Shown here: piece by piece, positions 12,139 to 40,865 of the stretch
Position numbering within the stretch: the stretch's first letter is position 1
Layout of the letters: each line of letters starts with the position of its first letter
Source: Clostridia bacterium
GTDB lineage: Bacteria > Bacillota > Clostridia > Lachnospirales > Lachnospiraceae
Direction: 5' to 3'
Length of the DNA stretch: 64,000 bases
NCBI GenBank assembly: GCA_003249225.1
Contig: QKJQ01000022.1
Span: forward strand, 90,121 to 154,120
Made by a program: the position numbers and the translations under genes
The notes under the pieces: model-generated
The model's input: only the letters and a program-made list of their open reading frames with translations
Told to the model about the DNA's origin: nothing
The model's database searches: none

Positions 12139-14526
12139 TTAATCTGCATTAAATAATTGCGATAATACATCCTGATGTTCTTCAAGTGCATCAAGCACGA
12201 ACGTATCCCAGTGTCGGGCATCGGTATCCGAGTCACCGAACACATAATCTTCCTGACCATAATCAATAACATCAAATCCAGGGATAGCTTTGCTTGCACC
12301 GGCTGTTCTGTAGGCTGCCGCATCAGCAAGCGTAAAGGATACATTGCTGATATCTTCATAGTTCACCCAGCTGCTGATGTCCGTTCCCGTTGCTTCTGTT
12401 GCCGAACCGTTTTCTGTCTGTGTCTGTGCTGTACTTTTTGTTACAGTTACCGCACCATCCACATATTTTCCATACATTTCATCAACATACAGTGCCAGTG
12501 ATTCTCCTAAGATTTCTGAAGGTACATGGCCACCGTTCCACTGCCATTCTATTTCGGCATCGACTCCGGCATTCAGCCACGCGATCTGAAGATTAAGCGA
12601 AGAGAACATTGACATGTCACCTTCGGATGCTCCCATCATGATTCTTGTCCAGACAGGGTTATCTGTATCCTCAGCGCCGATATAATTGAGTGGATTGTAA
12701 AGGGACACAATATTGTTGCCATATTCGTCACCAGCTTCAATCTCTGCAATGTCTGCCTGGTATGCCGCGAGCATTTCATCATAGGTTGCGTAGTTTGACG
12801 AATCTTTTCCACCGGATGACGACTGTGTTGTTCCGGCATCCGGAGTTCCGACCACCATAACATTATCGCTGTTATCCGTTGTCGATCCGTCTGTCGTCGT
12901 TCCATCTGTTGGTGCTGCTGTGCTTTCTGAAGTTCCATTTGTACTATCCGTAGTTCCTGTTGTGGTTCCGCCGGGACCTCCGGTCATTCCGGCAGGTGCA
13001 CCGGTCATGTCACCGCCTGGACCACCGGTGAAATCTCCCATATCTCCGCCAGGACCACCCATTTCACTGGATGAACTTCCCTTTGCGTATTTGCCTTCAA
13101 TAAATGCCACAGCTTTATCCTCTGAGGTCATTGCCGCTACTTCTGCATCGCTTAATGCAGTTCCGTCTTCATTAAACCATGTCCAACCTTCCGAATAATC
13201 AAGGTTATCGAGGTACCACTGAAGGTTCTGGGTAAACTCCGCAAGATACAGGTCAAGATAAGTTCCGTAGTAGCCATTTGTCTCCGGATATGCTGCCAGA
13301 TCATAGCCAATGCTAAGTGCAATGGTATCGTTCATATCACCATCATTGTTCAGATCAAATCCAACAACAGATTCTTCCACGGTAAGATTCTGTGCATTGA
13401 TATATTCCATGTATGTCTCGGAGAGATATTCTGCGAGCTGTGCCTGGAACGATGTACCAAAGTCGTATGTAGTATCCATATAGTATTCAAATGCCATGGT
13501 AATATCACCTTCATACAGTGATGTAATTGCACTGTAAGCCACACAGCCCCATGCTCCGTCTGAGATATCAAAGTCAACACCATCAATGGTAACGGTTGTT
13601 GAATATCCGCCGTCGCTGGTCTCATAGACGCCAACCGCACCAGCTTCGATCTGATAATCATAAAAGTCAGAATTGTTGGAAGTTGCAGCAAACATTGTTG
13701 CGTGAGCCGCTCCACCGGAACCACCGGTAGAAACAAAATAATCAACACTTCCGGGAAGATTTCCAAGAAGAATATTATATTTTACATATCTGGCTGCTGC
13801 TTTCTGGTCTGCCAGACAGCTTGGTGCATCACCGGTATAGTAAGTATTTCCGCTGTCATCGGTTGCTGTGTCCTGTTTTCCGCGATTTCCGCAGGCAATG
13901 TTAATGTATCCGTCTGCGGCATAGGTCGTTGCTGCCGTACTGTTCATGGCAGATCCATATCCGGCTGCTCCCGTGTTAAGAATAACCGGTGCTGTTGCCG
14001 CTGTATAGACCTGTCCGTTCGTACTGGTAATCTCTGCCGTATAGTCAATGACCAGAGATCCTTTTACCGCTTCTGTGTAACTTGATGAAATAATATCGGC
14101 TGTTCCGTCTGCATTTGTATCAATACCGGTTACATACGCACCTGGAACACATACAGATACGCCCTGCTGATCCGGAAGTTCCGGATAGGCTACTGCCGAT
14201 ACAATGGACAATACCCATGCATCTGAATCTGCATAATAGGTCCACTCCTGATCTGCGTTATTTGCCAGGTTCAAAGTGCTTTCAATGTAGGCAGCATCGG
14301 ATACGATATCTACTGTTTCCGTGTCAGAAGTGGTATCTGTATTGCTCTGGTCAGCAGTATCTGATGTATTGGTATCCGATGCTGCATCTGTCGATGTTGT
14401 ATTCGTTGTGCTGCTGGTTGCTGTATTTCCTGCATTTGTACTGCTGTTGTTCTCGGCTGAACTGCCGCAAGCCGCCAGACTTACAACCATTGTACAGATA
14501 AGAAGCAGGGTAGCTGTTTTTTTCAT
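12139..14526 (-). CDS. Large lipoprotein with a tannase/feruloyl-esterase-like alpha/beta hydrolase domain
   Basis: A 795-residue secreted lipoprotein. Seen: lysine-rich start, hydrophobic stretch and lipobox LAACGSS, then about 70 residues of Ser/Thr/Asn/Asp-rich linker. The body has ACGNRGKQDT, GDAPSCLADQKAAARYVKYN and the nucleophile motif TGGSGGAAHATMFAATSNN (GxSxG, Ser at about residue 270), which matches my memory of clostridial subtype A tannases. Mid-protein there is a Gly/Pro/Met insert (GGPGGDM repeated, about residues 490-530) and a Thr/Ser linker. The ATG at 14526 follows AAAGGAGG; the ORF opens earlier at 14607. It would act at the outer face of the membrane on galloyl or hydroxycinnamoyl esters. 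It lies just after a two-component system and a MATE exporter and has its own repeat-bearing promoter. The substrate is inference. Confidence 0.75.
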   Translation of the reverse strand: MKKTATLLLICTMVVSLAACGSSAENNSSTNAGNTATSSTTNTTSTDAASDTNTSDTADQSNTDTTSDTETVDIVSDAAYIESTLNLANNADQEWTYYADSDAWVLSIVSAVAYPELPDQQGVSVCVPGAYVTGIDTNADGTADIISSSYTEAVKGSLVIDYTAEITSTNGQVYTAATAPVILNTGAAGYGSAMNSTAATTYAADGYINIACGNRGKQDTATDDSGNTYYTGDAPSCLADQKAAARYVKYNILLGNLPGSVDYFVSTGGSGGAAHATMFAATSNNSDFYDYQIEAGAVGVYETSDGGYSTTVTIDGVDFDISDGAWGCVAYSAITSLYEGDITMAFEYYMDTTYDFGTSFQAQLAEYLSETYMEYINAQNLTVEESVVGFDLNNDGDMNDTIALSIGYDLAAYPETNGYYGTYLDLYLAEFTQNLQWYLDNLDYSEGWTWFNEDGTALSDAEVAAMTSEDKAVAFIEGKYAKGSSSSEMGGPGGDMGDFTGGPGGDMTGAPAGMTGGPGGTTTGTTDSTNGTSESTAAPTDGTTTDGSTTDNSDNVMVVGTPDAGTTQSSSGGKDSSNYATYDEMLAAYQADIAEIEAGDEYGNNIVSLYNPLNYIGAEDTDNPVWTRIMMGASEGDMSMFSSLNLQIAWLNAGVDAEIEWQWNGGHVPSEILGESLALYVDEMYGKYVDGAVTVTKSTAQTQTENGSATEATGTDISSWVNYEDISNVSFTLADAAAYRTAGASKAIPGFDVIDYGQEDYVFGDSDTDARHWDTFVLDALEEHQDVLSQLFNAD

Positions 14527-14605
14527 TTGATTTCCTCCTTTATATTCCATGAATCCTTTTTCGGTCTGATCAATCGTGTTTTGATCCTGTTTCACCGTTG
14601 ATACC

Positions 14606-14638
14606 AAAGTACCATGGAAAGATTGAAGTAATATTGAA
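14606..14638 (-). promoter_or_regulatory. Direct-repeat response-regulator box and -10 of the lipoprotein gene
   Basis: On the minus strand TTTCAAT-N4-CTTCAAT (two half-sites 11 bp apart, 14622-14638) is followed after exactly 10 bp by TACTTT (14606-14611) as a likely -10. There is no good -35, as expected for a promoter activated by an OmpR-type regulator bound over the -35 region. The regulator is probably the one at 15943-16626. Confidence 0.6.
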
Positions 14639-14663: not shown

Positions 14664-15950
14664 CTATGAATCTTTTGGAAGTATGACTTTAAATGTCATC
14701 TTCCCATCCGAATACGAAGCTAAAATTTCTCCCTTGTGTGCTGTAACAATTGCTTTTGCAATCGAAAGACCAAGACCATAGTGTCCCTGCCCCGATGATG
14801 TTCTTGCTTTATCTGCCCTGTAAAAACGTTCAAATATCAGTTCCATCTGCTCCTGTGACACCGGCTGCCCTTCATTCGTCACGGTCAGTGTTATGTTATT
14901 TTTTTCTTCCTTCAGGGTAACATCAATACTGCTCTTTTCAACAGAATGTTCGATTGCATTATCCATAAGAATCGAAACAAGATTTTGTATTTGTTCTTTA
15001 TTCCCCATGAGAAAGAGACTTTTTTGGATCTCGGTGTTGATCACCGTTCCTTTCTCAAAAGCAATACTCTCAAAGGGAAGAATATCCCCGGTTACCAGAT
15101 GGCTTACATCAATTTTATTCTTTTCCGGTTCAACATTTTCCGTACGTGCAAGTATCAGCAGCTGATGAACAAGTTCTGTCATTCTCTTGTTTTCATAACG
15201 TATGTTCTCAAGCCATTTACTCTTTCCCACTTCCCGTTCCAGCATATCCACATTGGTCTGGATCACCGCAAGCGGCGTTTTTAGTTCATGGCCCGCATCG
15301 GACAAATATTGTTTCTGTTTTTTGAAAGTCACTTCAAGTGGTCTGACGATTCTTTTGGACAGGTCCAGTGCAACAATAAAAATCAAAAGAACCGCAATGC
15401 CTCCAAAAATCAGTGTATATTGAGCCAGGGTCTTTACACTCTCCTGCAGTACCGTATTGTCCATCACAACGACCAGCATCACACCATTTGAAGTCTCTCT
15501 GTGATAGACCCATTGGTCATACATGCCATTCGCTTTAGTTTCATCAAAGATACGGCCTGCAAGTTCAAGCAGTTTCTCTTCCGAGATTCCGCTGCTGTCC
15601 TCCTTGTTTACTACAGTTTCCGTGCCATCTTCGTCTTTCGCTACTGCGTAAAAAGTCAGAACACTGCTGTCATAGAATTCAGGGAGGATGGAATCTTCCG
15701 GTGCCTGTTCCTGTGGTGGTGTCTGGATCTCCAAATGTCCGGTATCTGCTGAGCTGTCCACAGAGGTTGTACTATCAAAAGCAGTATTGCTCTTCCAATA
15801 ACCATCCGCATATAATTCCAGCATCTTTCTGTCTTTATGATATACTTCATAGTAACTTGAAAAGTATATGACACACAATGTCCCTGCAAACAAACCGACC
15901 AGCACTGCCATGATCGCCGCAACAATTTTCATTCTGGATCTTCTAAACAT
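14664..15950 (-). CDS. Sensor histidine kinase (TCS with MATE and lipoprotein)
   Basis: A 428-residue membrane kinase. Seen: TM helix about 9-31, an extracytoplasmic region of about 140 residues, second TM about 172-193, H-box SDAGHELKTPLAVIQ, N-box ILMDNAIEHS, a G1 region NEGQPV and GHYGLGLSIAKAIV. The ATG at 15950 has GAGG seven bases before it and overlaps the regulator gene by eight bases. No HAMP is obvious. It would phosphorylate the neighbouring regulator in response to a signal outside the membrane; the neighbouring lipoprotein hydrolase suggests a plant-phenolic or other ester ligand, which is inference. Confidence 0.95.
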   Translation of the reverse strand: MFRRSRMKIVAAIMAVLVGLFAGTLCVIYFSSYYEVYHKDRKMLELYADGYWKSNTAFDSTTSVDSSADTGHLEIQTPPQEQAPEDSILPEFYDSSVLTFYAVAKDEDGTETVVNKEDSSGISEEKLLELAGRIFDETKANGMYDQWVYHRETSNGVMLVVVMDNTVLQESVKTLAQYTLIFGGIAVLLIFIVALDLSKRIVRPLEVTFKKQKQYLSDAGHELKTPLAVIQTNVDMLEREVGKSKWLENIRYENKRMTELVHQLLILARTENVEPEKNKIDVSHLVTGDILPFESIAFEKGTVINTEIQKSLFLMGNKEQIQNLVSILMDNAIEHSVEKSSIDVTLKEEKNNITLTVTNEGQPVSQEQMELIFERFYRADKARTSSGQGHYGLGLSIAKAIVTAHKGEILASYSDGKMTFKVILPKDS

Positions 15951-16626
15951 TGATCGACCTCAATTCATATCCTATGCCGCGCAGAGCCTTGATTTCCACG
16001 GCTGCGCCAATGAACAATATCTTCTTTCTGGTGAATGTAAGATATACTTCTACATTGTTATACTCTGACTCATAATCATAACCCCAGATTCTGAGCGCCA
16101 ACTGTTCTCTTGTCAGCACCATCTTCTGATTCAGTATAAAATACTCCAGTATTCTGAATTCCTTCTCGCTCAGTCTGACCGATTGTCCATTTGTTGTACA
16201 GGTCAGGTTACATGTCGTAACATTCAGCTCCATATCTCCAAAGTTTAGAACTTCAGCCACCGGAACATCATTTCGCCGCACCAGCGCCCGAAGCCTTGCC
16301 AGAAGTTCCCTGGTCTCAAAAGGCTTTGCGAGATAATCATCGGCTCCGCTGTCGAGTCCCATGACCTTATCATCAAGTTCTGTTTTGGCAGTCAGCATAA
16401 GGATCGGTGTCTTAATACCTCGACGTCTTGCTCGTTTTGTGATCTCAAACCCCGACATTCCGGGAAGCATAACATCAAGAATAATAATGTCATATTCCAC
16501 ATCAAGGATTGCGCCAAGTCCGGAAATTCCATCTTCGCATACTGTGACTTCATAGTCTTCCAGACGGAGCAGTTCAGACAGTGCTTCTGCCATCCTGCTT
16601 TCATCTTCAACCAGCAATATCTTCAA
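15943..16626 (-). CDS. OmpR-family response regulator
   Basis: A 227-residue regulator: receiver domain with VEDESR acidic pair, phospho-accepting Asp in IIILDVMLPGMSG and the conserved Lys in LAKPFETRELLARL, followed by a winged-helix domain (LSEKEFRILEYFILN, RIWGYDYESEYNNVEVYLTFTRKK). The start is TTG at 16626, one base after the stop of the MATE gene, with AGGGGG in the MATE 3' end as ribosome binding site. It is translationally coupled to the kinase. The direct repeat at 14622-14638 is its likely target. Confidence 0.95.
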   Translation of the reverse strand: MKILLVEDESRMAEALSELLRLEDYEVTVCEDGISGLGAILDVEYDIIILDVMLPGMSGFEITKRARRRGIKTPILMLTAKTELDDKVMGLDSGADDYLAKPFETRELLARLRALVRRNDVPVAEVLNFGDMELNVTTCNLTCTTNGQSVRLSEKEFRILEYFILNQKMVLTREQLALRIWGYDYESEYNNVEVYLTFTRKKILFIGAAVEIKALRGIGYELRSINV

Positions 16627-19237: not shown

Positions 19238-21118
19238 TTAGCGGCGATGTCCACCGAAAGATGTACTGTTCGGATTCGTAAAGGACAGATTCAGTGCATC
19301 CGCTACTGCTTCAATGATACCATTGCTGCTGAAGGTAGCTCCGGAAACTGTATTCACATTGATTCCCTGCGTACTGATAATGTTGGAAGTCACAGTGCTG
19401 TAAGCACGGTTAAAATAAGGTGCATCATCCTGATAGGAGATCACGGTAATATCTGTGATTTCGCCACCTTCTACTGTTACGGAAACGGTTGTCGTGCCGC
19501 GGAAGCCGGTACCGGAGCCGGTATACGTTCCATCCGTATATAAACCGGTTGAAGCTGCAGTAGGTGTCGGGGCAGTTGTGGCTGTAGGTGCTATTGTTGC
19601 AGTAGGCGCCGTTGTGGCTGTAGGTGCTGTTGTTTCGGTAGGAGAAGCAGTTGCTGCGGGGGTGGAAGTCGCTGCTGAATCCGTTGGCGTAGCGGTTGCG
19701 GTCTCTGTTGAGGAAGGACTTTCTGTCGGTGTCTGTGTTGCTGCAGCAGCCTCTGTCGTCTCAACTGCTGATGAAGTATCGGTTGTTGATGTTGCGTTAT
19801 CGGATGTGCCAAGCGTTGTGCTGTCTGTTGTTCCATCCGTCGTAACATCCGTACTCGATGAATCTGCTGCTATTGTGAGTTCAGCTCCGCTCAGTGCATC
19901 GGCAACTGCATTGATAATACCATTGCTGCTGAAGGTTGCTCCGGATACTGTACTGACATCTACACTCTGTGTATCAATAATTTCAGCAATGATGGAAGCT
20001 TCTGCACGAATAAAGTATTCTCTGTCATCATTGTAGGATACGACTGTAATATCAGTTATATAACCATTTTCTACGGTTACGGATACCTTTGTTGTTCCAC
20101 GGAAACCGGAACCGGAACCAGTGTAGGTTCCATCTGCATAGAGGCCGGTATCTTCGCTTGCAGTGGACGTATCGCTGCCTGCAGTTGCTGTTGTATCACC
20201 AGAAGATGCGATTTCTGTCAGCAATTCAGGGATTGAAGTAGCCACGGTAGCGGAGGTAGCTTCTGATGTTGAGACAGAGGATGCAAGTGTACCGACATAA
20301 ACCAGTCCGGAAATTGCGACCACGGATGCGGCGGCAGCTACAGCAGGTGTTGGATTCGCTTTTACATTTTCTCTCGGACACACGTCAACGCATTCGAAAC
20401 AATTAATACATTCACCAGACGTTACTTTATCATATTTATAAAGTGGTATTCCCATGGAACAATTTCTGGTACAGATCTTGCAGGCACCGCATTTTTCACG
20501 ATTCTTTTTTATATGGAAGAAACGTGCTTTGGATGTGACGGCGAACACGGCTCCAAGCGGGCACACATAGCGGCAAAAAAATCGTTCAATAAAAAGAGAG
20601 CCAACGATAATAAGAAGCAGCAGCAATCCGCCGATGGAGATCAGATAACTTGCAGAAGGCCAGTTCCCAATGCTTGCATACATACCAAAAATTGTCCATG
20701 GACTAGCCAGACTGCTGATTGATACGACCTCAAAGCCCCAGATAAAGATAACAATAAAACCAAGAAGTATATATTTAAATGATTTTAATATCCGGTCTGC
20801 TTTTTCACTGGGTCTGAATTTCAATTTCAGAGTCTTCTTTGAGATGAACCATAACAGGTCACCCATGGCACCAAAGCTGCAAAGGAATCCGCAGAAGAAA
20901 CGGCCCATGAATACGGTGACTAATAACACACCCATTAGCAAAAGAATGGAACCAGCTTGTGCTCCTATCGTAAAGCTTCCGTCTTTCACCGATACAAAGA
21001 GATCTTTGATTGCGTAAAATGCTGATACAAATAATCCAGGCATTACAAGAAATGCCAACGTCTGAACTACTCTTCGAAAAATGTGTACTGCTGATATTTT
21101 TTTCTTTTTACTGCTCAT
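19238..21118 (-). CDS. NapH-like 4Fe-4S membrane protein fused to two FMN-binding domains
   Basis: A 626-residue electron-transfer protein. In order (ORF-track numbering): about six TM helices; membrane cysteine motifs CGFLCSFGAMGD (80-91) and CRYVCPLGA (186-194) as in NapH/RnfH-type proteins; two ferredoxin clusters, CGACKICTRNC (214-224) and CINCFECVDVCP (241-252); a further TM at about 263-284; FMN_bind domain 1 (about 329-412); a Thr/Ala/Pro/Ser linker with APTATTAPTAT repeats; and FMN_bind domain 2 (about 529-612), exactly 200 residues on. Both FMN domains carry TVSGATFSS, where a threonine is flavinylated by ApbE. ATG at 21118 is preferred to a TTG at 21130. It overlaps apbE by 11 bases. 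It would pass electrons from cytoplasmic ferredoxin across the membrane to extracytoplasmic flavins. Confidence 0.93.
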   Translation of the reverse strand: MSSKKKKISAVHIFRRVVQTLAFLVMPGLFVSAFYAIKDLFVSVKDGSFTIGAQAGSILLLMGVLLVTVFMGRFFCGFLCSFGAMGDLLWFISKKTLKLKFRPSEKADRILKSFKYILLGFIVIFIWGFEVVSISSLASPWTIFGMYASIGNWPSASYLISIGGLLLLLIIVGSLFIERFFCRYVCPLGAVFAVTSKARFFHIKKNREKCGACKICTRNCSMGIPLYKYDKVTSGECINCFECVDVCPRENVKANPTPAVAAAASVVAISGLVYVGTLASSVSTSEATSATVATSIPELLTEIASSGDTTATAGSDTSTASEDTGLYADGTYTGSGSGFRGTTKVSVTVENGYITDITVVSYNDDREYFIRAEASIIAEIIDTQSVDVSTVSGATFSSNGIINAVADALSGAELTIAADSSSTDVTTDGTTDSTTLGTSDNATSTTDTSSAVETTEAAAATQTPTESPSSTETATATPTDSAATSTPAATASPTETTAPTATTAPTATIAPTATTAPTPTAASTGLYTDGTYTGSGTGFRGTTTVSVTVEGGEITDITVISYQDDAPYFNRAYSTVTSNIISTQGINVNTVSGATFSSNGIIEAVADALNLSFTNPNSTSFGGHRR

Positions 21119-22121
21119 AAGAATAACCAACCCTTTCTGCGCCCTCTTTTTCTCCGGGCTTATCTATTGTAAACCGATCTCTGATTCCTTCTGTTATAAA
21201 GATTTCACCGGCACCGGTAATAAAAATTCCATCTGCTTTACAGTCTTTCAGTACAGACATTCCCTTTTCTAATCCAAGCAGAATAAAAATCGTAGCAAGT
21301 GCATCCAGATCCATTGCAGAATTTCCGATCAAGGTTGCACTGATCAATCCGGCATCTGCCGGATAGCCAGTCTTTGGATGCAGTATATGATGATAGCGGA
21401 TGCCATTCTTCATAAAGTATTTCTCGTAGACTCCGGAAGTAACAACCGCAGCGTCCTTAATAAAAAGTGTTCCAAAGGACGACATTTTATCATATGGTGA
21501 CTGAATACCAACATTTCTTGGTGTCTCGTTATTATCATTACCCTGATCTACAGAGATAACGGTACCTCCAAAATTGATCAGCGCATCGGTTATACCATGC
21601 TGTATAAGGATGCTTTTTGTTTTGTCTGCTGCATACCCTTTTGCGATACCGCCAAGATCTATACTTTGTCCATGCTTTTCAAGTGCTATCCGGTATGGTT
21701 TTGTATACATCTTTATCGACTCCCATGAAATGAGTTTTTGCGCTTCTTTGATCTTTGAATCGTCAGGTATGTATTCCTGCCTTTTCCCGATGCTCCAAAG
21801 TCTTGACAGAACACCTGAGGTGATATCAAAGGCGCCTTCTGATAACCTTGAAAAGTATATGGCGCGTTCAATGATTCGAAACGTATCTTCCGAAACTTCC
21901 ACGGGATGTTCTCCTGCCGAATGATTGACCCTTGAGATCTCACTGTCTTCCTTAAAAACAGAAAGACGGTCATCCATTGATAGTACATATGCTTTGCATT
22001 CATTCAGACATTCTATTATTTCCGCTTCTTTGCTTTCCAAATATCGCAGGGAAATGGTATTCGCTGTTCCCAGTGCAAAAAAAGTTTTTTGTATATTCTT
22101 CACTTTGTCACTCAATCGCAT
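21108..22121 (-). CDS. apbE: ApbE-type FAD:protein FMN transferase
   Basis: A 337-residue enzyme that transfers FMN from FAD to a Thr/Ser of FMN-binding domains, Mg2+-dependent. Seen: the FAITSG-like FDITSGVLSRLWSIGK segment, SIDLGGIAKGYAADK, NFGGTVIS and HHILHPKTGYPAD. No lipobox or clear signal peptide is seen, although family members usually act outside the membrane. GTG at 22124 or ATG at 22121, both after AGGACAGG. The stop lies inside the start region of the downstream FMN-domain protein, its evident substrate. Promoter with direct repeats at 22147-22180. Confidence 0.95.
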   Translation of the reverse strand: MRLSDKVKNIQKTFFALGTANTISLRYLESKEAEIIECLNECKAYVLSMDDRLSVFKEDSEISRVNHSAGEHPVEVSEDTFRIIERAIYFSRLSEGAFDITSGVLSRLWSIGKRQEYIPDDSKIKEAQKLISWESIKMYTKPYRIALEKHGQSIDLGGIAKGYAADKTKSILIQHGITDALINFGGTVISVDQGNDNNETPRNVGIQSPYDKMSSFGTLFIKDAAVVTSGVYEKYFMKNGIRYHHILHPKTGYPADAGLISATLIGNSAMDLDALATIFILLGLEKGMSVLKDCKADGIFITGAGEIFITEGIRDRFTIDKPGEKEGAERVGYSYEQ

Positions 22122-22146
22122 CACCTGTCCTGTTTTTGATATATGT

Positions 22147-22180
22147 ATTGTATCGTTCGAAAATTAAAGAAACATTAAAG
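22147..22180 (-). promoter_or_regulatory. Response-regulator box and -10 for the apbE operon
   Basis: Minus strand CTTTAAT-GTTT-CTTTAAT (22163-22180), then 10 bp, then TACAAT (22147-22152). The same seven-base half-sites with the same four-base and ten-base spacings occur in front of the response regulator gene at 24500-24533. This is the signature of an OmpR-type activated promoter lacking a -35. Confidence 0.75.
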
Positions 22181-22304
22181 CTTTCGCCGATTCTATGAAC
22201 ATATTGTGAATTCTTACTGTCAGAAAGCAAAAGAACTGCGTGATATGAAAATGCCATATTATAATACAGCTTCTCAGGGTATCGTACGCAGTTCATGTTT
22301 TTGC

Positions 22305-23774
22305 TTATAATGCAGGCAGTGTAATCGTAAAGGTGGTGCCTTGACCCAGCTGACTCTCAGCCCGGACTTCACCGTTATGTGCTCTTGCGATCCATTGTAC
22401 CATGGACAGACCAAGTCCCATGCTGTTGTTCGCAGCATTTCTGGAAGGATCCACCTGATAAAAACGGTCCCAGATCTTATTCAGGTTTTCTGTTGCTATA
22501 CCAATTCCGTCATCTGTCACCGTAAGAATGATCTTGTCTTTATCTCTATATAAATGAACGTCCAGATGACCGTTTTTCTTTCCATATTTTACACCGTTGT
22601 CAATCAGATTCATCAGAAGACGCATCAACAGGGTCTCATCTCCCCAAACAAACAGAGCCGGGCTGATATCTTCTGTGATGGTAATATTTTTAAGATCCAA
22701 TACTTCTCTCTGATTCTCTGTTACGATCTCAGCAAGCTCGCTTATGTTTATCTGTTCAAAATTCAGGTTTTTTCCTTCGTGTTCGGCGCGTGCCAGCATC
22801 AAAAGCTGGGATATCAGCGAGGACATCTTTTTCCCTTGTCCCATGATCTTTTCAATGGCTTCTTTCGCTTCTTCAAGCGTTGAAGCATTTTCCAAAGCAA
22901 ACTCACATTGTGAAAGGATAACGGACGTTGGCGTGCGTAGCTCATGAGAAGCATCTGAGGTAAACTGTTTTTCTTTTTCAAATGCTCCTTCCAGGCGATC
23001 AAACATCCGGTCAAACGCGTGGGCAAGTGCATGGATTTCATCCGTTCCTTCACCAAGACTGATTCTCTGAGATAAATTCTGACTCTCACCAATTCTCTCT
23101 GCTGCCTCAATAATCTTATTGATTGGACGAAAGGCACGATAGATCAGCAAGTATCCGCCAAGCCCAAAAAGGACAATAAAGACCGGCAGACCAAACAGAA
23201 AAAGCTTTAAAGACATTTCATACGTGCGGTATTCACCGTCACAGGATACAATACCACGAACCTGCAACTGCAATCCGGAAGAAAGTGTTATATTGATTGT
23301 GTATACATACCAGCTTTCGTCCTCTGATTTCACTTCCATTACACGCTTTTCTTCCTCTCGGCCAAAGCTTCCATCCCCGCTGAAATCAGACTTTGTCTTT
23401 CCTTCTTCCGACCCTTCTTCTGGCTTTTCTCCCAATTCATCGTACTCTGTAATGCTCATGCTTTCTACGAGATCTGAGGTTTCTTCGTTAAATGTAAAGC
23501 CATCCGGAACGGTGCCGCCAAGAAGATTTCCCTCTTCGTCATATACCACGATCGAAACACCATCGATACTATCGTCAAACTCATCTGTCATCCCACCAGC
23601 TTCATAGAGTGCAGCGGCGGCTGATTCAACTGTTTCTACTAACGCATTCTTGGCGTTATTCTTCACAACTCTGGTACTGACATTGGATAATACTGCGATT
23701 ACTCCTACCGTCAGTACTATCATAAAGGTAGTGAACCAGAGAGTGATGCGAAATTTAATGGATACTTTCTTCAT
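22305..23774 (-). CDS. Sensor histidine kinase (paired with regulator 23771-24445)
   Basis: A 489-residue kinase. TM about 11-31, extracytoplasmic sensor about 32-185 rich in Glu/Ser/Asp, TM about 190-212, HAMP with YRAFRPINKIIEAAERI, H-box FTSDASHELRTPTSVI, N-box LMNLIDNGVKYG, G1 TDDGIGIATE, F-box IWDRFYQVDPSRN, G2 NSMGLGLSMVQWIA. Its ATG overlaps the regulator stop by four bases. All catalytic boxes are intact. Signal unknown; its regulator seems to control the neighbouring flavin electron-transfer operon. Confidence 0.96.
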   Translation of the reverse strand: MKKVSIKFRITLWFTTFMIVLTVGVIAVLSNVSTRVVKNNAKNALVETVESAAAALYEAGGMTDEFDDSIDGVSIVVYDEEGNLLGGTVPDGFTFNEETSDLVESMSITEYDELGEKPEEGSEEGKTKSDFSGDGSFGREEEKRVMEVKSEDESWYVYTINITLSSGLQLQVRGIVSCDGEYRTYEMSLKLFLFGLPVFIVLFGLGGYLLIYRAFRPINKIIEAAERIGESQNLSQRISLGEGTDEIHALAHAFDRMFDRLEGAFEKEKQFTSDASHELRTPTSVILSQCEFALENASTLEEAKEAIEKIMGQGKKMSSLISQLLMLARAEHEGKNLNFEQINISELAEIVTENQREVLDLKNITITEDISPALFVWGDETLLMRLLMNLIDNGVKYGKKNGHLDVHLYRDKDKIILTVTDDGIGIATENLNKIWDRFYQVDPSRNAANNSMGLGLSMVQWIARAHNGEVRAESQLGQGTTFTITLPAL

Positions 23775-24445
23775 TCTCCCACCCGTAAAACATAACCAAC
23801 ACCTCTTACAGTCTGAATCAGCTTTGGTTCATGCCCTTCATCTATCTTTTTCCTGAGATAACGTATATAGACATCGACAACGTTGGAACCTCCATCGTAA
23901 TCATAATTCCATATATGATAGCTGATCTTGTCCCGCGACAGAACGATCCCGGCATTTCGAATCAGATATTCAAGGATTGCAAATTCCTTTGAAGAGACCG
24001 GGATGATCTCGTCATGTCTGGAAACCGTTCTGGCGTCACAGTCAACCACAAGATCTTCCAGTGTATATACATTTGAAACACTGGCGGTCGTGTGCCGCAG
24101 CATCACGCGTATTCTGGCCATCAGTTCATCAAAAGCAAATGGTTTTACGAGGTAGTCATCTGCGCCTGCATCAAGTCCGTTTACCCTGTCTTCTATGCTG
24201 TCCATAGCCGTCAAAAGTAACACAGGTGTCAGATTCTTCTCTGACCGGATCTTCTTTAGGAACTGGATTCCACTCATTCCCGGAAGCATGATGTCCAGAA
24301 TTACAACATCATATTCTGCCATCTGGAAATACTCCAGTGCAGTCATTCCGTCATAGCAGGAATCCACCGTATAATGCTCCAGTTCCAGCTTTTTCACGAT
24401 CAGTTCATTCAGATTCGGTTCATCTTCTACAACTAATATTCTCAC
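23771..24445 (-). CDS. OmpR-family response regulator
   Basis: A 224-residue regulator. The ORF track extends to 24643, but the GTG at 24445 has CAGGAG at eight-base spacing and gives the normal start VRILVVEDEP. Receiver: phospho-Asp in VVILDIMLPGMSG, Lys in YLVKPFAFDELMARI. Winged helix: SSKEFAILEYLIRN and YHIWNYDYDGGSNVVDVYIRYLRKK. It has its own promoter with the CTTTAAT repeat, identical in layout to that of apbE, so it is likely autoregulated and activates apbE and the FMN-domain protein. Confidence 0.96.
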   Translation of the reverse strand: MRILVVEDEPNLNELIVKKLELEHYTVDSCYDGMTALEYFQMAEYDVVILDIMLPGMSGIQFLKKIRSEKNLTPVLLLTAMDSIEDRVNGLDAGADDYLVKPFAFDELMARIRVMLRHTTASVSNVYTLEDLVVDCDARTVSRHDEIIPVSSKEFAILEYLIRNAGIVLSRDKISYHIWNYDYDGGSNVVDVYIRYLRKKIDEGHEPKLIQTVRGVGYVLRVGE

Positions 24446-39242: not shown

Positions 39243-40865
39243 ATGTTTTGTTATCAATGTCAGGAAACGGCAGCCTGCAAAGGCTGTACCATCAAAGGTG
39301 TCTGCGGAAAGACTGCAGAAACTGCAAATCTGCAGGACCTTTTAATCTATACGGTAAAGGGAATCGCAGAGATTGTAACGAAAGGAAAGCTTGACGCAGC
39401 TTCCCTTGGCAAGGCAAATTATGATGTCATCAACAGTCTGTTCATTACCATAACGAATGCAAACTTTGATGAACAGGCCATTGAAGCACAAATCAGAAAG
39501 ATGCTTGCACTTCGAGATACCCTGAGAGGAAAAATCGCAGCTGCCTCACTGCATGACGCTGCGACCTTTACGGTAACGACAAGAGAATCCATGCTTGAAA
39601 AAGCTGCTACTGTCGGTGTGCTGGCTACCGAAAATGAAGATGTACGTTCTCTTAGGGAACTGATCACCTATGGTCTGAAGGGAATGGCCGCTTATGCAGA
39701 ACATGCCTTTAACCTTGGAAAAGAAGATACGGCAATCTTTGCTTTCATCTATGATGCAATGGCTGCGACACTTGATAATTCGTTGTCTGCTGAAGCACTG
39801 GTCGGACTTACATTAAAGACCGGTGAATTCGGAGTGAAAGTAATGGCTCTTCTTGATGAAGCCAATACCTCACGATATGGCAATCCTGAGATAACTTCCG
39901 TCAACATTGGTGTCAGAAAAAATCCTGCTATTCTTATATCCGGACATGATCTGACGGATATGGAGCGTTTGCTCGAACAGACCAAGGGAACCGGTGTCGA
40001 TGTCTATACTCACAGTGAAATGCTTCCGGCCAACTATTATCCGGCTTTCAAAAAGTACGATAATTTCGTTGGAAATTACGGAAATGCATGGTGGAAACAA
40101 ACCGAAGAATTCGCAAGTTTCCACGGTCCGATTCTCTTCACTACGAACTGTATCGTTCCTCCAAAAAGCGAAGAAGTAAGGGGACGTATCTTCACCACAG
40201 GAGCTTCCGGTTATCCGGGCTGTAAGCACATTGATGCTGATGCCGAGGGTAAGAAGGATTTTTCTGAGATTATCGCTCTTGCAAAGACACTTCCATCACC
40301 GGAAGAAATCGAGACCGGAACGATCGTTGGTGGATTTGCACACAATCAGGTGCTGGCACTTGCCGATAAGGTCGTAGACGCTGTGAAATCCGGTGCCATA
40401 AAGAAATTCTTTGTTATGGCTGGTTGTGATGGACGTATGAAATCCAGAGATTACTATACTGAGTTTGCAAAACAGCTTCCCAAAGATACTGTCATTCTGA
40501 CCGCAGGCTGTGCAAAATATCGCTATAACAAACTGCCTCTTGGTGATATCGGTGGCATTCCAAGAGTTCTGGATGCCGGTCAGTGCAACGATTCTTACTC
40601 TCTTGCTGTGATTGCATTAAAACTGAAAGAAGTCTTTGGACTTAACGATGTGAATGAACTTCCAATTGCTTATAACATCGCATGGTATGAGCAGAAAGCA
40701 GTTATTGTTCTTCTTGCCCTCTTATCCCTTGGTGTAAAGAACATTCACCTTGGACCGACACTCCCTGCCTTCCTTTCCCCGGATGTAGTAAAGGTTCTTG
40801 TGGATACCTTTGGCATAGCAGGAATTGGTAGCGTGGAAGATGATATCGCTTTGTTTACAGCATAA
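39243..40865 (+). CDS. hcp: Hybrid cluster protein (hydroxylamine / NO reductase)
   Basis: A 540-residue iron-sulfur protein. N-terminal [23 protein letters not shown] holds the cysteines of the [4Fe-4S] cluster; hybrid-cluster ligands are visible in [36 protein letters not shown] and [10 protein letters not shown]. Reduces hydroxylamine and, in vivo, probably nitric oxide, protecting anaerobes from nitrosative stress. AGGAGG precedes the ATG. Single-gene transcript: palindromic promoter upstream and a strong terminator downstream. No hcr reductase gene is adjacent. Confidence 0.98.

Follow-up and report, generated by a model that had tools for sequence, protein, structure and literature searches.

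A candidate one-chain membrane electron conduit with paired C-terminal FMN-binding domains and a dedicated ApbE without export signal in Clostridia

Locus and domain architecture

The window analyzed here is a stretch of 64,000 nucleotides from contig QKJQ01000022.1 of a Lachnospiraceae genome (Clostridia bacterium, assembly GCA_003249225.1; hereinafter G000, 88% complete). Its minus strand at 19238-24445 reads, in this order, a response regulator, a sensor histidine kinase, apbE, and a gene for a fusion protein that joins a NapH-like iron-sulfur membrane core to two domains for flavin mononucleotide (FMN). The fusion is probably a trans-membrane electron conduit in one chain, leading from the cytosol to two covalently bound outer FMN and further to an extracytosolic acceptor. 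The sequence provides the domain content, gene order, recurrence, and a topology signal for this reading, whereas flavinylation, electron flow, donor, acceptor, and regulation are what we infer.

With its start assigned to the ATG at 21118, the fusion is shorter than the listed open reading frame (ORF) of 630 amino acids, which begins at an upstream TTG. From the N- to the C-terminus it consists of four hydrophobic helices with the CX3CS and CX3CP motifs, two C..C..C...C motifs, a fifth hydrophobic helix (TM5), an FMN_bind domain, a linker, and another FMN_bind domain (Table 1). In Pfam, the protein matches Fer4_5 twice (E 4.8e-15, 55.7 bits with a cut-off of 22), 4Fe-4S dicluster models, and FMN_bind in two stretches (E 3.1e-23, 82.7 bits with a cut-off of 22). 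The NCBIfam models for NapH (napH_, E 2.6e-23) and for the NosR core (E 7.1e-21) also match, both far under their curated cut-offs. The fusion reached 82.9 and 73.6 bits with the NapH models TIGR02163 and NF007013 (cut-offs of 213 and 234) and 74.2 bits with the NosR model NF046105 (equivalog cut-off of 1000), the latter match being confined to the iron-sulfur and membrane part. All 12 cysteines of the core are invariant across 14 aligned sequences. Both FMN_bind domains show a relationship to the CbFMN4 domain 8p2b; the study from which it comes demonstrated covalent FMN on multi-FMN proteins of this type (PMC10339131). A previous interpretation of this locus made without database searches (the sequence-only reading) described one chain with membrane cysteine motifs, two [4Fe-4S] motifs, and two FMN_bind domains with SGAT sites. 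The Pfam matches, the alignment, and the predicted sites T395 and T595 confirm this description.

Table 1. Features of the fusion locus (positions in the window)
Feature	Position	Strand	Description	Evidence
Fusion protein gene	19238..21118	-	626 aa; NapH-like core, TM5, and two C-terminal FMN_bind domains	Pfam; 13 relatives with the same order
NapH-like membrane core	20351..21118	-	Residues 1-256; four hydrophobic helices and two [4Fe-4S] motifs	Fer4_5 x2; hydropathy
Membrane-edge motif CX3C(S)	20879..20893	-	C76-C80	Invariant alignment columns
Membrane-edge motif CX3CP	20558..20575	-	C182-C186-P187	Invariant alignment columns
Two [4Fe-4S] motifs	20378..20491	-	C210-C220 and C237-C247	Fer4 models; invariant Cys
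Fifth hydrophobic helix (TM5)	20285..20341	-	Residues 260-278	Hydropathy; Lys/Arg flank bias; AlphaFold2 helix 256-293
FMN_bind domain 1	19889..20107	-	Predicted flavinylated Thr395 in STVSGAT	Pfam; AlphaFold2 pLDDT >90
FMN_bind domain 2	19289..19507	-	Predicted flavinylated Thr595 in NTVSGAT	Pfam; AlphaFold2 pLDDT >90
Linker between FMN_bind domains	19538..19888	-	Rich in Ser, Thr, Ala, and Pro	Sequence; length varies among relatives; pLDDT <50
apbE	21108..22121	-	Predicted FAD:protein FMN transferase without signal peptide	PF02424, E 1.4e-76; motif comparison; N-terminus
Sensor histidine kinase gene	22305..23774	-	Extracytosolic acidic loop	HAMP, HisKA, HATPase_c
Response regulator gene	23771..24445	-	OmpR-type; GTG start at 24445 after AGGAG	Response_reg, Trans_reg_C
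Terminator-like stem-loop	19184..19218	-	15 pairs, directly after the fusion gene	Consensus scan only

Recurrence in other genomes

A scan of GTDB genomes revealed 13 relatives with the same domain order, two of these loci being partial. They come mostly from rumen and gut Ruminococcaceae/Clostridiales, with the addition of Parasporobacterium paucivorans DSM 15970 (L032), and each carries a single C-terminal FMN_bind domain or a pair. In the sister genome of the same genus ("Clostridia bacterium SZUA-448", G003, locus L027), the complete order of response regulator, histidine kinase, apbE, and fusion is kept, with 68-72% identity overall. When 391 genomes were drawn evenly from the class, three more fusions with two domains (L070-L072) appeared, as did several with one domain (L073-L076, L083, L085, and L078, which is more distantly related). 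Among the 36 genomes of the same genus or family sampled first, the fusion was found in G003 only. Its distribution is patchy but widespread. The search for the same fusion elsewhere, proposed in the sequence-only reading, has thus given a positive answer, and the assembly or fusion error that it named as a possible refutation is ruled out by the same order in G003 and in 12 further loci of separate genomes.

The usually conserved Asp that precedes the predicted flavinylated Thr by six residues varies among these proteins. It is replaced in many fusions paired with an ApbE without signal peptide (e.g., L028, L034, and L070) and kept in L071, L072, and L074. In L077, L081, L086, L089, and L091, the NapH-like core and the fifth helix lead into C-terminal tails of a different kind, which may represent a further class of extracytosolic modules attached to this conduit; the tails of L077 and L086, the two scanned, had no Pfam match.

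Location of the FMN-binding domains

It is established for the NapH family that both termini of the core face the cytosol. Because TM5 follows the cytosolic iron-sulfur motifs and has more Lys and Arg on its N-terminal than on its C-terminal flank, the FMN_bind domains are predicted to lie outside. The helix is conserved, and the charge bias is seen in 22 of 24 proteins, which are related, so that the counts are not independent. The ApbE encoded beside the fusions L072 and L074 bears an N-terminal membrane anchor, which also places the FMN domains outside. In the split-gene relatives L007-L011, a NapH-like gene is paired with genes of FMN_bind proteins that start in a hydrophobic segment. When the whole chain was modeled with AlphaFold2, the FMN_bind domains had a predicted local distance difference test (pLDDT) score above 90 and the rest was poor; the membrane part modeled alone was better (mean pLDDT 70) and contained TM5 as a helix at residues 256-293.

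If TM5 did not span the membrane, the tail would be cytosolic and the fusion would be a membrane-bound cytosolic iron-sulfur/flavin protein. This arrangement offers a simple explanation for a cytosolic ApbE, and TM5 is short, Ala/Gly-rich, and mildly hydrophobic. We nevertheless consider it very improbable, given the conservation and charge bias of TM5, the anchored ApbE in L072 and L074, the separate hydrophobic signals of the FMN_bind proteins in the split-gene relatives, and a Ser/Thr- and Pro-rich linker of the kind typical of the Gram-positive exterior.

An ApbE without export signal

The sequence-only reading gave the fusion its own ApbE. A dedicated apbE is indeed present, but the absence of an export signal in its product was overlooked. 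The protein matches PF02424 with 258 bits (cut-off 25.6) and largely keeps the active-site motifs GGIAKGYA, HHI, and D-x-x-A-T, with HILDP reading HILHP. It starts directly at the catalytic domain and has no lipoprotein, Sec, or Tat signal and no anchor. A missed upstream start with a signal peptide was rejected, since the frame upstream, read back to its stop codon, encodes no hydrophobic stretch.

The export signal is missing in 10 of the 12 fusion-linked ApbEs checked (the window, L023, L027-L032, L034, and L070); the upstream extension in L029 is dubious, and the signal-less state is also seen in a fragment from G062 (L064). In contrast, all 13 ApbEs encoded away from the fusion in fusion-bearing genomes (G072 contributing two) are of the lipoprotein type or have a hydrophobic N-terminus, and all 29 closest other clostridial ApbEs bear an export signal, one low-identity fragment at a contig edge being impossible to judge. 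On the basis of these 29, the signal-less form was rejected as a common state in Clostridia. On the ApbE tree, a single clade (support 98/94) unites the fusion-linked proteins, whether signal-less or anchored, and the signal-less state is one change with modest support (77/70). The gene adjoins or overlaps the fusion gene in 12 loci. The overlap with the fusion start noticed in the sequence-only reading is real and comprises 11 nucleotides in the window; an overlap of start and stop or a gap of at most 13 nucleotides was found in five of the seven other loci measured.

There are two scenarios: FMN is attached to the tail ahead of its passage through Sec, or the reaction is left to a different ApbE. 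Under the first scenario, the cytosolic ApbE would load FMN on the nascent or untranslocated tail, and Sec would then export the FMN-bearing chain, which is compatible with the conduit role. Such an action on an unfolded tail is conceivable because the minimal ApbE motif comprises only seven residues (PMC12052999). The contrast between fusion-linked and other ApbEs, the kept active-site motifs, and the close spacing of the two genes speak for this scenario. So does the absence of an evidently cytosolic FMN_bind client in G000, whose FMN_bind proteins are RnfG, the fusion with its two domains, and one anchored protein of 150 amino acids. TatC scored over the cut-off in none of the 14 fusion genomes, several of which are incomplete, with one sub-threshold fragment. 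This result makes dual Sec/Tat insertion, in which a domain flavinylated and folded in the cytosol would leave through Tat, unlikely and also favors the Sec route. On the other side, we found no precedent for a chain with linked FMN passing through Sec, L072 and L074 use an anchored ApbE, and most of these genomes also encode a lipoprotein ApbE that could serve. We regard flavinylation before export as a possibility that is less likely than not. We put forward with similar reserve, as a tentative model, that flavin loading of the tail in the cytosol, before its FMN domains cross via Sec without Tat, may be coupled to translation by the overlap of the two genes.

The second scenario is that a lipoprotein ApbE, present in G000 (L041) and most relatives and presumably also serving RnfG, flavinylates the fusion outside; the signal-less ApbE would then have some other target in the cytosol or be a relic. 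A case in its favor, and against flavinylation in the cytosol, is L026 in G064, where the fusion is present and the only ApbE is a lipoprotein. Against this scenario, the signal-less ApbE keeps its motifs, accompanies the fusion in several families, and shares one clade with the anchored fusion-linked ApbE. We give it a slightly lower probability than flavinylation before export.

Proposed electron path

In the conduit reading, a low-potential cytosolic donor, likeliest reduced ferredoxin, would reduce the two cytosolic [4Fe-4S] clusters. The electrons would then cross the four-helix core via the membrane-edge CX3C(P/S) sites and be collected by two covalent FMN on the outside domains, which are held by TM5 and joined by the flexible linker. 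The flavins, which ApbE would attach to the fusion, may hand the electrons to an extracytosolic acceptor, such as Fe(III), soluble flavins, or quinones, or to a partner not encoded nearby. The adjacent two-component system probably sets expression.

In G000, MenD gave no match over the cut-off and MqnA and MqnD gave none at all, which makes quinol, the donor proposed for NosR, unlikely here. This genome has an Rnf operon, and ferredoxin remains the likeliest donor by inference. MenD-like matches under the cut-off are present in G061, G062, and G064. In G062 (L067) and G064 (C43:55495-56769) the MenD-profile matches lie inside open frames of 1298 amino acids, and these two fusion carriers, unlike G000, may make a quinone.

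The fusion could alternatively feed one dedicated extracytosolic reductase encoded elsewhere, as in the NosR-NosZ and the proposed PceC-PceA pairs, rather than free extracellular acceptors. Characterized NapH-like flavoproteins do have dedicated partners (PMC8238504, PMC5928378). However, no reductase gene is constant beside the 14 fusions, where the only recurrent neighbors are the two-component system and, in three loci, Cthe_2159 lipoproteins. A secreted partner resembling fumarate reductase was sought in G000 and none was recognized. The only full-length FAD_binding_2 match of the genome sits between nadA- and nadC-like ORFs and is, for this reason, probably NadB. We consider a dedicated reductase unlikely. 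The small anchored FMN_bind protein mentioned above (L004, G000:C34:7433-7639) has a single hydrophobic segment, at its N-terminus, and a single FMN_bind domain, is encoded near a flavodoxin-like gene, and is a possible partner for outer electron transfer.

Several observations weigh against the conduit. The Asp of the flavinylation motif D-x-x-[ST]-G-A-[ST] reads Ser at the T395 site and Asn at the T595 site; replacement of this Asp by Ala was reported to have a minor effect only (review PMC12052999). The absence of an export signal in the ApbE of the locus leaves its flavinylation of an outside domain unexplained. The topology rests on hydropathy and charge, the AlphaFold2 membrane model being weak, and a Foldseek search with this model found nothing. 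No partner reductase or acceptor is encoded within the window, and with the incompleteness of G000 the missing quinone genes are not proof. The path from the cytosol to the outer flavins, as drawn in the sequence-only reading, still is the best explanation.

Regulation and neighboring genes

The sequence-only reading also placed the conduit under a dedicated two-component system. This is plausible: 10 of the 14 loci have an OmpR-type system next to the fusion or, in the case of L024, at a distance of two genes, but it lies on either side and belongs to at least two sub-types. Its closeness to the fusion hints at induction of the conduit by a signal from outside. The terminator-like stem comes next after the fusion gene, and apbE and fusion therefore look like the end of a transcription unit.

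The Cthe_2159 (PF14262) lipoproteins adjoin the fusion in the rumen-type loci L023 (2490-4046), L024 (1967-3577), and L028 (402-1754). The family has several copies per genome, and this link may be due to chance. Elsewhere in the window, an 822-amino-acid lipoprotein-like protein without Pfam match (12139-14607, minus strand) adjoins a second two-component system (14664-16626) and a MATE transporter; the same neighborhood in the sister-genome locus L027 likewise ends in a similar lipoprotein start. A protein encoded outside the fusion unit (39243-40865, plus strand) resembles the hybrid-cluster protein (Hcp) by its N-terminal Cys pattern. An anti-phage system was also considered and rejected, as PADLOC gave no match.

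Implications

Quinone-poor Clostridia of gut, rumen, and sediment need outward electron routes, and a two-gene unit with the whole route is a candidate. Loss of the export signal in a dedicated ApbE challenges the rule that outside domains are flavinylated by an outside enzyme. The anchored (L072, L074) and signal-less ApbEs are natural variants for direct comparison.

Comparison with known systems

The sequence-only reading saw novelty in the single chain, separate flavinylated and NapH-like proteins being known. This is wrong. In 1926 of 2465 flavinylated NapH-like clusters, an FMN-binding domain is N-terminal in the same protein (PMC8238504), so that the one-chain type is the majority. A clostridial module of apbE and "NosR", a membrane protein with several FMN domains (PMC13134045), undercuts the claim further. 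The definition of flavinylated NapH-like systems (PMC8238504) requires a PF12801 (Fer4_5) membrane protein together with ApbE and/or FMN_bind in the cluster, and the fusion locus has this combination. The definition also asks for a signal peptide or lipidation site in at least one of the ApbE or FMN_bind genes; the ApbE of the fusion locus has neither, and the fusion opens with TM1 of its polytopic core. The locus departs from the further description of FMN_bind as N-terminal and extracytosolic or encoded by a separate gene, since here FMN_bind is C-terminal in the same chain.

Characterized single-chain cases are NosR and PceC/RdhC (PMC8238504, PMC5928378). Like the fusion, NosR and PceC combine FMN_bind, membrane helices, and two CX3C(P) motifs in one chain, and NosR shares the two cytosolic [4Fe-4S] clusters. 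Their covalent FMN on Thr is ApbE-dependent, which is predicted for the fusion. They differ in having a single N-terminal FMN_bind domain, whereas the fusion has two, C-terminal, after an added helix; the fusion also has no nitrous oxide or dehalogenase partner, and no quinone pathway is seen in G000.

The nearest functional clue, a correlative one, is the Clostridium apbE-"NosR" module with multiple FMN domains, which is upregulated in Fe(III) plaque reduction, present in Fe(III)-reducing Clostridium species, and absent from a non-reducer (PMC13134045, 2026). Extracellular Fe(III) reduction is proposed for both systems. For the module, the authors propose a quinone donor, and the domain order is not stated in their text. 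L072 and L074, perhaps of the same group (unproven), have an anchored ApbE, in contrast to the signal-less ApbE of the window.

Repeated FMN_bind domains on flexible linkers also occur in SaFMN3 and CbFMN4 (PMC10339131) and in the split-gene systems L007-L011, the latter with the NapH-like gene alongside as a separate gene. All of these carry the flavin domains on proteins of their own, either secreted or with a single helix, and an ApbE, where seen (L021, L022), groups with exported ApbEs. The cytosolic ApbE of Klebsiella pneumoniae also lacks a signal peptide, but it acts on a fumarate reductase that is soluble and cytosolic (PMC12052999), whereas the client in the window is predicted to be outside. 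Relative to the published text, so far as it was available, the new features are the paired C-terminal FMN_bind domains after an added helix and the dedicated ApbE without signal peptide.
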